In this document: positions 27,879 to 30,546 of the stretch, piece after piece
How positions within the stretch are numbered: position 1 is the stretch's first letter
Layout of the letters: each line of letters opens with the position of its first letter
Origin: Desulfoplanes formicivorans
GTDB taxonomy: Bacteria > Desulfobacterota > Desulfovibrionia > Desulfovibrionales > Desulfomicrobiaceae
Direction of reading: 5' to 3'
Assembly (NCBI RefSeq): GCF_001748225.1
Contig: NZ_BDFE01000007.1
Span: 1 to 64,000 of the forward strand
DNA length: 64,000 nt
Translations under genes and position numbers: made by a program
Notes under the pieces: model-generated
The model's database searches: none
What the model saw: the letters and a program-made list of their open reading frames with translations, nothing else
Told to the model about the DNA's origin: nothing

Positions 27879-28619
27879 CTATGCCCGGGCAACAACCAGG
27901 ACATCCACCCGTCCGGCACCGCACGCACGCAGGGCCCGGGCACACGAGGTCAGGGTCGAGCCCGTTGTCATGACATCATCCACCAGCAGGACGCGCTTGT
28001 TCTCGAGCCGCCTGCCCCGAACAGCAAAGGCGCCCTTGAGGTTGCTGCGCCGGGCCTTTTTGCCCAGCCCCCTTTGAGCCCTGGTGTTACGCACACGAAC
28101 AAGGGAACGGACGTCCACCTCGGGTCCCCAAACCGGAACCAGTCTGCGGGCCAGCTCCAGGCTCTGGTTGAATCCTCGTTCCTGTAACCGCCGGGGATGC
28201 AGGGGAACAGGCACAATCACGTCTGCAGGCTGTATGTCATGAAGAACACCCCCCTGAAGAAGCATCCTTCCAAGGAGGGTAACCAGAGGCAATCGGGCAT
28301 TGAACTTGAAATCCGTGATCATCGACCGGACCAGTCCGGAATAGGGGCCAAAGAAACCCAGGGAAGACCATGGACGGGGAGAACGCCTGCAGTCCGAGCA
28401 CAGATACACCTCCATGCTGTCTGAAGGATAGCACATCCCGCATCCAGGGCAATATCCCCGGGTTTGGGGCCGGATATCAGCCAGGCAGTCCGGACACAAT
28501 TCAGGGAACACGGAATCACGCTGCACAATTCGACGTCCACAGATCAGACACCTGCGCCCCGCAGCCAGAGCAAACTGTTGCACAATCCCGCGTATCCGGT
28601 CCAAGACTCCGGTGTTCAT
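27879..28619 (-). CDS. ComF-family phosphoribosyltransferase-like protein (246 aa)
   Basis: The N-terminal zinc-ribbon has four CxxC-type pairs (CLICGRR, CPDC, CPGCGMC, CSDC). The C-terminal phosphoribosyltransferase domain has the PRPP loop VLLVDDVMTTGSTL and PVPLHPRRLQERGFNQS. The family is linked to DNA uptake in transformable bacteria, but many members are in species with no known competence; role here unknown. Confidence 0.9.
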   Translation of the reverse strand: MNTGVLDRIRGIVQQFALAAGRRCLICGRRIVQRDSVFPELCPDCLADIRPQTRGYCPGCGMCYPSDSMEVYLCSDCRRSPRPWSSLGFFGPYSGLVRSMITDFKFNARLPLVTLLGRMLLQGGVLHDIQPADVIVPVPLHPRRLQERGFNQSLELARRLVPVWGPEVDVRSLVRVRNTRAQRGLGKKARRSNLKGAFAVRGRRLENKRVLLVDDVMTTGSTLTSCARALRACGAGRVDVLVVARA

Positions 28620-28631
28620 ACCGGCCTCACA

Positions 28632-29270
28632 TCATCCCCTGTGTCTGACGGCTTGTTTCCATGCCTCACGGCCAAGAGACCGCATCCGGCCCAGGGCCGC
28701 TGCGCTGGCCATAAAATCGCCAGGATCATCCATGGATCGAAACAGTTCGGGATCGTGCAGGGAAAACCCGAACACATCCAGAAAATATTTCAGGGTCAAG
28801 AGGCTTCCCTTAAACAGGTTCTCCCCACGGGGACGCCCTGCACACAACGCCACATACGCCCGCCGCCGCGGCAGCGGCACACTGGCCTGATCCCTGTTGG
28901 GCAAACAAACATACCGGCTCTGCCCCCTGTCAATGAACCCCTTGAACAGGGCCGGAACATGATAGAAATAAATGGGTGCGGCAAACAGGACAAAGGGGGC
29001 CGCCTCCATGCAGGCAAACAGGGATTCCACATCATCCCTGTTCCGTAAAATGCACCTGCCTGACGGGTTGCAGGCCGAACACCCCTTGCACGGCAGAATC
29101 TTCTGGTCGCGAAGATAGACAGTGGTGCTCGTCCCTCCGGATTCCTCAATGCCGGCGGCAAAGGCTCGGGCAGCAGCATCCGAATTGCCTCCGGACCGGG
29201 GGCTGCAGGCAAAAATAATCGGAGGACCCGACACCACGTCCTGACCTGGTGCCATTTCAGGCCGACCCAT
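28632..29270 (-). CDS. Iron-sulfur flavoprotein / NADPH-dependent FMN reductase family (212 aa)
   Basis: Flavodoxin-like fold with the FMN phosphate loop ACSPRSGGNSD near residues 21-31. A compact cysteine motif, Cys61, Cys64, Cys67, Cys73 (CKGCSACNPSGRC), matches the CX2CX2CX4-7C cluster ligand of the iron-sulfur flavoprotein family. The likely role is electron transfer or reduction of small molecules such as O2 or peroxide in anaerobes. Its start (MGRPEMAPG) overlaps the end of the upstream selenoprotein gene by 14 bases, so the two are probably translationally coupled. Confidence 0.82.
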   Translation of the reverse strand: MGRPEMAPGQDVVSGPPIIFACSPRSGGNSDAAARAFAAGIEESGGTSTTVYLRDQKILPCKGCSACNPSGRCILRNRDDVESLFACMEAAPFVLFAAPIYFYHVPALFKGFIDRGQSRYVCLPNRDQASVPLPRRRAYVALCAGRPRGENLFKGSLLTLKYFLDVFGFSLHDPELFRSMDDPGDFMASAAALGRMRSLGREAWKQAVRHRG

Positions 29271-29499
29271 CAGCCCCTTCCTCGTTTTTGTAAAATCGGG
29301 CTCGGATAAACCCGTCCTCGTTTGCTGTCTCCATCTTCCATTCCCCGAGATCGGACAGGGCATGGCGCAACTGGGGAACCGCCTTTTCCTGCACAAGCGC
29401 CTCCACCTCCTGGCCCTGATTGAACTGGAGGTAAAGACCTACCTCCTGACCGACCCCTCAACACGTTTTGCGAAAATCCAGGACAATCTTTCTGGACAT
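29257..29499 (-). CDS. Small selenoprotein with Cys-Sec motif (80 aa, in-frame TGA at codon 14)
   Basis: GAGGAG lies three bases before ATG 29499. The reading begins MSRKIVLDFRKTC, meets TGA at 29458-29460, and continues in frame for 66 more codons with normal coding character (GVGQEVGLYLQFNQGQ to KNEEGADGSA) to a TGA at 29257-29259, overlapping the start of the next gene. Directly after the internal TGA is a hairpin that fits a bacterial SECIS, so TGA is read as selenocysteine next to Cys13 (a C-U pair). Such pairs are redox active. I do not recognise the family. The context is an operon with an MBL hydrolase upstream and an iron-sulfur flavoprotein downstream. The alternative is a 13-codon peptide or a pseudogene, but the intact downstream frame argues against it. 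Confidence 0.8.
29427..29460 (-). promoter_or_regulatory. SECIS element (selenocysteine insertion)
   Basis: After UGA come 11 bases, then GGAGGUA pairing with UACCUCC (7 bp) around the loop GGUCUU. The loop starts 18 bases after UGA. In the E. coli fdhF SECIS the apical GGUCU also starts 18 bases after UGA, and its G and U contact SelB. The bulged U of fdhF is not evident here. Confidence 0.78.
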
Positions 29500-29516
29500 G
29501 GTCTCCTCGTCTTTTC

Positions 29517-30152
29517 CTAGAGCATATGAAAATCGGTAAAAAAGGGATTGTTCTCCCGGGCGTCACGCACATCGGTTTGGGGTCCGTGCCCCGGATAGAT
29601 GATGGTTTCCTCGGGCAGCACAAGGATCTGTGAACAGGCAGACTCCTTGAGCACCTTTTCATCCCCGCCAGGAAAATCCGTTCGTCCCACAGAGCGGTAG
29701 AAGATGAGGTCACCGCAAAACACCGCACCGAGTACGGGAAAATACAGGGACAAACTGCCCGGACTGTGCCCCGGAGTTGCCAGCACGTGGCATGTCTCGC
29801 CCACAAAAGTATGTGTGCCCGGTGTCAGAGGCGTGAAAGAAAAGGACGGCGTCTTGGGAAATCCCATGAACCCACCGGAACCCAGCTCACTGGACAACAA
29901 GGGCCTGTCGGCTTCACCTGCCAGAATTTCGGCTCCCGTGGCATCCGAGAGGGCGGCATTGCCCCCGATATGATCGAAATGCAGATGCGTGTTCAGGATA
30001 TGGGTCAAGGTGAGTCCTTGGGAGCGCAACACGGCGAGCACCTCGGCAGGATCGCCTCCCGGATCAATGACCACGGCCTCTTTGGCGTCATTATAAACAA
30101 GGTAGCAATTGGTTTCCAGGGGACCAAGCTGAAAAATGTTGACGTACAGCAC
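29517..30152 (-). CDS. MBL-fold metallo-hydrolase, glyoxalase II-like (211 aa)
   Basis: Metallo-beta-lactamase fold with the metal motif THLHFDH, then GHSPGS, a FCGDLIF aspartate and the final GHG. This pattern fits small glyoxalase II / persulfide dioxygenase relatives; substrate unknown. A GTG start at 30152, with GAGG upstream, is favoured over the longer frame to 30215. It ends 17 bases before the selenoprotein ATG and forms the first gene of that operon. Confidence 0.85.
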   Translation of the reverse strand: MLYVNIFQLGPLETNCYLVYNDAKEAVVIDPGGDPAEVLAVLRSQGLTLTHILNTHLHFDHIGGNAALSDATGAEILAGEADRPLLSSELGSGGFMGFPKTPSFSFTPLTPGTHTFVGETCHVLATPGHSPGSLSLYFPVLGAVFCGDLIFYRSVGRTDFPGGDEKVLKESACSQILVLPEETIIYPGHGPQTDVRDARENNPFFTDFHML

Positions 30153-30546
30153 GTAACCTCGCAGGGGTTGAACATGAACCGGAAACAGGGCGGTCCATGA
30201 TGGACCGGTGCCCATGCAATGCCAGCGGACAAAGCCCTCGTCTACCCCATATCCCTTCAGGAGAAAAGAGGGCAGTCACCCTCCCAACCGGCCGAAAAAA
30301 CACAAAGACTGGACAAAGGCAGTTGCCTGGGGCAAAAACATCACCTGATTCTACGAGGTATCCTTGCGCTACCGGTGCGGCTACCAGCCAAAACCTTACT
30401 CCCTGCACCTTTGCACGGAACAGGGATAGCTCACAAGCCCTGGCGGACCCTGGCCGATGTCACCTTGTCCGTCATCCCGGGAAACCAAGGCACCCATGCC
30501 TTGCCCTTGAAATTTTCACTATCCTTTTTCTTGTATCCTCTTTGCC
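30153..30546. other. Divergent intergenic region
   Basis: This separates the MBL operon (-) from the GGDEF/TPR gene (+) and should hold both promoters. Open frames here have no domain or good ribosome binding site; I see no gene. Confidence 0.45.

Follow-up and report, generated by a model that had tools for sequence, protein, structure and literature searches.

A predicted selenocysteine-containing protein with a TusA-like fold, encoded across an in-frame UGA codon in Desulfovibrionales

Does the UGA codon of a short reading frame in Desulfoplanes formicivorans end a peptide of 13 codons, or does it encode selenocysteine (Sec) within a protein of 80 residues? The frame, here called selX, lies on the minus strand of the first 64,000 nucleotides of contig NZ_BDFE01000007.1 (hereafter the window). 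An earlier note, written from the letters of the window, had read it as a hidden selenoprotein, and this reading is supported by homologs in related genomes, by the Sec machinery and by the occurrence of Cys at the Sec site. We estimate the probability that selX is a true selenoprotein with a TusA-like fold at about 0.88, a judgement that draws on comparative sequence analysis and on a predicted structure. Given that gene finders read UGA as a stop, selX is likely missing from most annotations.

The elements from which the earlier note had assembled the gene are all present on the minus strand (Table 1): a ribosome binding site and an ATG are followed by 12 further codons, the in-frame TGA and 66 sense codons. 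The predicted product, obtained by translation, is MSRKIVLDFRKTCUGVGQEVGLYLQFNQGQEVEALVQEKAVPQLRHALSDLGEWKMETANEDGFIRARFYKNEEGADGSA. The frame closes where the next gene starts, as had been described; the ATG of that gene is at position 29255, and use of an alternative in-frame ATG at 29270 would create an overlap with selX of a few codons. The 7-bp stem and its loop downstream of the UGA were likewise recovered. Open reading frames of 13 codons are common by chance, and the hairpin of the window (-12.6 kcal/mol, z = -1.19) is unremarkable alone, with 25 of 200 shuffled sequences folding equally well, so that only comparative evidence lifts selX above chance.

Table 1. Positions of selX, its predicted signals and the neighbouring genes in the window.
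Feature	Position	Strand	Evidence or remark
selX, predicted 80-aa selenoprotein, with stop codon	29257..29499	-	translation; homologs; dN/dS
Start codon ATG of selX	29499-29497	-	direct reading
Ribosome binding site AGGAG of selX	about 29503..29507	-	direct reading
UGA, predicted selenocysteine, residue 14, right after Cys13	29458..29460	-	homolog comparison
Stop codon of selX	29259-29257	-	direct reading
Predicted SECIS hairpin GGAGGUA-GGUCUU-UACCUCC, loop 18 nt after UGA	29427..29446	-	position, spacing and pairing kept in family
Upstream gene, MBL-fold hydrolase, glyoxalase-II type	29517..30215	-	PF00753, 3e-33
Downstream gene, flavodoxin-like / NADPH-dependent FMN reductase	28632..29255, could start at 29270	-	PF03358, PF02525
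ComF-like phosphoribosyltransferase	27879..28619	-	function assigned by eye; conserved neighbourhood

When 150 related genomes were searched with the selX protein, Sec being written as Cys, 84 gave matches, nearly all with a single in-frame TGA, located at one common residue. This residue follows a Cys within the motif LDLRxKCUGxGxEVGWYLR. A profile built from 30 members extended the family to 175 of the 348 genomes of the order Desulfovibrionales, distributed over 38 of 59 genera, and nearly all of these members carry UGA at this position. The same profile indicated that the family is practically absent outside the order: run on 395 genomes of the phylum, it gave only two weak matches there, one to a distant DDCUA protein (E 5e-4), the other not convincing (L114). 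The former, from another family of the phylum, might be a distant relative and has an in-frame TGA after a Cys (L113, G471:C10:384530-384736; ADYRDDCUAGFLDVSLRLRF). From a species collection, a DNA pattern including the TGA retrieved 46 loci, and all records whose titles name an order or a lower rank were from Desulfovibrionales, the genera including Pseudodesulfovibrio, Solidesulfovibrio, Nitratidesulfovibrio, Fundidesulfovibrio, Humidesulfovibrio, Desulfocurvus, Desulfonatronovibrio and Desulfonatronospira. Homologs were not found on plasmid records. A locus search with the single selX protein, back-translated, yielded zero loci, presumably since UGA is not matched by the Cys codons of a back-translation.

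Conservation is seen on both sides of the UGA. Ahead of it, the LD.R..C motif is kept; downstream of the hairpin (codons +13 to +55 after the UGA, 156 usable pairs), the median dN/dS is 0.23 in the selX frame versus about 1.54 in the other two frames, from which we conclude that the predicted downstream frame is under purifying selection. The Cys-Sec pair that the earlier note had pointed out is conserved in all Sec members examined except one: Cys directly precedes the UGA in 78 of 78 Sec-type loci, and one further member has GU instead of CU (L172, G128:C13; RNIGUGLGLEISFYL), so that the Cys beside Sec may be dispensable in some members. A diverged Sec copy in one genome (L189, G696, genus g22; RGKCUGVGLKARWYLLHSKTYRIES), where a Cys paralog is encoded elsewhere (L178), may be decaying.

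Bacterial SECIS elements have been modelled as hairpins with a loop 16-37 nt from the UGA, G at the first two loop positions, a stem of 4-16 bp and an energy of <= -7.5 kcal/mol (PMC13188914). When folded, as the earlier note had suggested, the hairpin of the window lies within each of these limits (18 nt, GGUCUU, 7-8 bp, -12.6 kcal/mol), and in the same features of spacing, loop, upper stem and energy it resembles the SECIS of E. coli fdhF. The fdhF loop is GGUCU; the loop of the selX family, in contrast, is usually GGUUGG, the GGUCUU of the window being nearer to fdhF. Across 104 distinct sequences the hairpin is usually found at the same place, its loop starting with two G residues some 18 nt downstream of the UGA. 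RNAalifold, applied to 32 diverse sequences, predicted exactly the proposed stem, with 96.9% of cells paired versus 36.6-68.3% when the partners were slid and with 18 cells changed on both sides; the covariation score of 0.251 (0.137 +/- 0.018 in shuffles) was reached by 0 of 500 shuffles. While the stem overlaps the EVGWYLR codons, so that amino-acid conservation contributes to its conservation, the covariation of the predicted stem extends to synonymous positions. An Ile codon (AUA or AUC, with A at the first position) is accompanied by the Tyr codon UAU in 30 of 30 cases, whereas a Val codon is accompanied by UAC in 26 and by UAU in 11 (Fisher 5e-10, uncorrected for relatedness). In a lineage with DASW or DAGW residues, the stem re-forms in a shifted register in several members (L081, L094).

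The earlier note had suggested looking for selA, selB, selC and selD, and all four were found in the genome from which the window derives (617.2 bits for selA, 409.7 for selB, 82.4 for tRNA-Sec, i.e. selC, and 333.4 for selD). The selD gene has an in-frame TGA of its own, and selB is present in 134 of the 150 relatives. The note had also named Cys homologs at residue 14 as support, and these occur both in an orthologous operon and in a separate paralog family. Of the outcomes that the note had named as refuting, neither a lack of Cys or Sec homologs nor a lack of selB and selC was thus observed. Two genomes of one genus of the same taxonomic family (G003 and G007, genus g3) possess selB, tRNA-Sec, the Sec form RRVCUGLTRDASWHLRF and an intact hairpin. 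In a third genome of this genus (G005), selB and tRNA-Sec were not detected, the slot between the MBL and flavoprotein genes holds RQACPCTLTRDTSWYLRF, and the hairpin is broken; the encoded ortholog (L175) has CPC at the Sec site, with one residue inserted and two thiols kept. Sec, SECIS and Sec machinery thus appear to have been lost together within one genus, which would amount to a natural experiment, with the proviso that this genome is 85% complete, so that selB and tRNA-Sec might lie in its missing part. A sister genome (G001) keeps the UGA, yet selB and tRNA-Sec were not found there, which its completeness of 77% can explain. The Cys paralogs have the same length and the motif IDL..V.CGLVPAI...SGFGSGG.W, and are encoded in several genera away from the MBL-flavoprotein cluster (L093, L095, L116, L178-L183, L186-L188, L190 and L191); the family has no credible match in Pfam or NCBIfam. 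In Cys orthologs and paralogs alike, the frame is continuous through the Sec position.

These observations bear on two readings without selenium, both of which we consider very improbable. If the UGA were an ordinary stop, as annotation programs would call it, the 13 codons would be noise or a leader peptide and the sequence downstream a pseudogene or a separately started gene; the z score of the hairpin alone would be in keeping with this. It would leave unexplained, however, that throughout the order nearly all members have UGA, and not UAA or UAG, at one particular residue, that both flanks are conserved with an in-frame dN/dS of 0.23, and that Cys relatives cross the position without a stop. 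Alternatively, the UGA might be read as Trp or Cys by a near-cognate tRNA, or be subject to programmed read-through without selenium. Nothing specific speaks in favour of this, and it is opposed by a SECIS that covaries and keeps the expected spacing, by the presence of the four sel genes, among them a selD with its own in-frame TGA, and by the Cys replacement in a genome that has also lost the hairpin and any detectable Sec machinery. Comparison gives good support to the UGA signals, the frame, the SECIS, the machinery, the Sec-to-Cys exchange and the gene order; selenium incorporation into selX is a prediction.

While the earlier note had recognised no protein family, the present analysis adds a TusA-like fold, a conserved neighbourhood and a check of novelty. 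An AlphaFold2 model based on 41 sequences (mean pLDDT 83.6, pTM 0.69) predicts the order beta-alpha-beta-alpha-beta-beta. Its top PDB matches are TsuB/YeeD (8k1r, Z 10.1) and a SirA-like protein (3hz7, Z 10.1, rmsd 1.8 over 69), E. coli TusA (3lvj) scores Z 8.5, and the Alba, IF3 and SpoVS folds come next with Z about 7-8; Foldseek E-values were no better than 3e-3, and Z scores of 8-10 can reflect a common arrangement. Compared with the sequences of solved structures, the family profile gave only chance matches. With TusA-type sequences, hhalign aligned Sec14 with the TusA Cys in a weak match (E 0.015-0.043, probability 1-3%). None of the 30 members matched PF01206 at E <= 1, and the CPxP motif is absent, its place being taken by CUGVG, CUGLG, CUHVG or CUxxG without the prolines. 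Membership of the TusA family was rejected on these grounds, and we accordingly describe selX as TusA-like in its predicted fold but outside PF01206. Shared with TusA, SirA and TsuB (YeeD) are the length of about 80 residues, the predicted fold and an Asp six residues before the reactive residue, just ahead of helix 1 (D8 and U14 in selX); selX differs in having Sec for Cys and a second Cys immediately before it.

A TusA-type domain has been linked to selenium use before, in the form of a SirA-like (YedF-type) selenium-metabolism protein encoded beside selD (PMC2432076). The genome of the window has this arrangement as well: selD (L196, G000:C17:78963-79883) directly follows a YedF-type gene (L192, G000:C17:78270-78461) with a TusA domain, an ordinary CPQP motif and no UGA. 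This is a gene separate from selX, which is located elsewhere and encodes a stand-alone domain with Sec.

In the window, selX is flanked by the MBL-fold hydrolase and flavoprotein genes. The best NCBIfam match of the MBL protein is GloB, at 86.9 bits below the cut-off of 200.8, with weaker resemblance to sulfur transferase/dioxygenase. The flavoprotein has a cysteine cluster, Cx2Cx2Cx5C, whose spacing appears to resemble that of iron-sulfur flavoproteins. Downstream of comF follow rplU, rpmA, obgE and proB (named by eye), which also belong to the conserved neighbourhood. Of the 78 Sec-type loci, 61 have an MBL gene in the same orientation no more than 2 kb upstream of selX (directly upstream in 51), and 64 have a flavodoxin-like gene no more than 500 nt downstream; 61 loci have both neighbours, and 14, largely from Solidesulfovibrio, Fundidesulfovibrio and relatives, have neither. 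A greedy ORF map of the neighbours was unreliable in G+C-rich genomes and was left out. On the basis of gene order, a partnership of selX with its neighbours is likely. An obligate partnership with the flavoprotein was rejected, since many genomes that lack selX nevertheless encode the flavoprotein; the 14 loci lacking both neighbours point the same way. In some genomes, a nitroreductase-like gene (named by eye) precedes the MBL gene, and in the genomes of family f2 (L105, L052 and L084) a glycosyltransferase-like gene is placed between the MBL gene and selX, about -1100 to -40 from the UGA. In Solidesulfovibrio-type loci such as L028, L032, L047 and L145, selX lies outside the MBL-flavoprotein cluster and the flavoprotein gene is found elsewhere; some selX copies of this type are downstream of an apparent UPF0016/TMEM165-type membrane protein gene.

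How might such a protein work? SelB with tRNA-Sec would recognise the hairpin just downstream of the UGA and have it decoded as Sec. In the model, Sec14 occupies the beginning of helix 1, which is the site of the catalytic Cys in TusA, with Cys13 adjacent. Most likely, Sec14 would serve as the nucleophile that accepts sulfane sulfur or an oxidised thiol; Cys13 could then close a selenenylsulfide to release the bound group, and the neighbouring flavoprotein or a thioredoxin might re-reduce the Cys-Sec pair, while a thioester or persulfide may be the substrate that the MBL hydrolase provides or uses up. We judge the chances of sulfur-carrier chemistry to be slightly below even. The fuller proposal, that selX represents the first selenoprotein with a TusA fold and carries sulfur or selenium, with Sec for the persulfide-forming Cys, operating as a redox/sulfur-relay unit with the glyoxalase-II-like hydrolase and the flavoprotein in several Desulfovibrionales families and missed by gene finders, is put forward tentatively. 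It raises the question of why selenium would be used in a sulfur-carrier-shaped protein of an anaerobic sulfate reducer living in sulfide.

The adjacent Cys and Sec of nearly all members would also suit a thiol/peroxide redox enzyme or electron relay, cycling between selenenylsulfide and selenol like the GCUG tail of animal thioredoxin reductase, with the flavoprotein as its reductase. The FMN-reductase-type gene downstream in 64 of 78 Sec-type loci, the nitroreductase-like gene further upstream in some genomes and the two thiols retained in the CPC version of G005 are all compatible with such a role, to which we assign a real, if minority, chance. It fits less well with a predicted fold of the sulfur carrier type instead of a thioredoxin-like one, with the flavoprotein being found without selX and with paralogs that have a single Cys at the Sec position (L116 and L178-L183). 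A role of the pair in binding or cleaving metal or organometal species, of the kind suggested for the CU-motif proteins SaoL and HgcA, with the operon serving detoxification, appears improbable to us. CU motifs are listed for SaoL, HgcA, SaoC and MbdU (PMC13188914), and the MBL, nitroreductase and flavoprotein neighbours resemble detoxification genes; against this, selX has no sequence match to these four families, and the inspected neighbours include no recognisable transporter, corrinoid protein or metal regulator.

The selX family is undescribed in the databases and literature that we searched, although a recent unpublished or closed-access description is possible. The 30 members gave no credible match in Pfam or in NCBIfam (June 2026), where scattered chance matches concerned one member each (best E 0.054) and the selenoprotein models, including the KCU-star and SAO families, did not match. 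An inventory of 119 prokaryotic selenoprotein families and subfamilies from May 2026 (PMC13188914) lists no such motif with the size or context of selX and does not mention TusA or SirA; the families of Haft and Tolstoy (2025) were compared through its table. TusA and SirA are likewise unmentioned in a 2022 review, in a 2008 ocean survey and in a survey of stop codons from 2007 that covered Desulfovibrio (PMC1914089). We therefore regard selX as a new predicted selenoprotein family, probably with a fold unlisted among selenoproteins in these sources, and as a likely annotation gap affecting a gene conserved in about half of the sampled Desulfovibrionales genomes. An adjacent Cys-Sec pair is shared with other small CU-motif selenoproteins (KCU-star/DUF466, the Csac_0668 2Fe-2S protein, SaoL, SaoC, HgcA and MbdU), from which selX is distinguished by context, length or Sec position.
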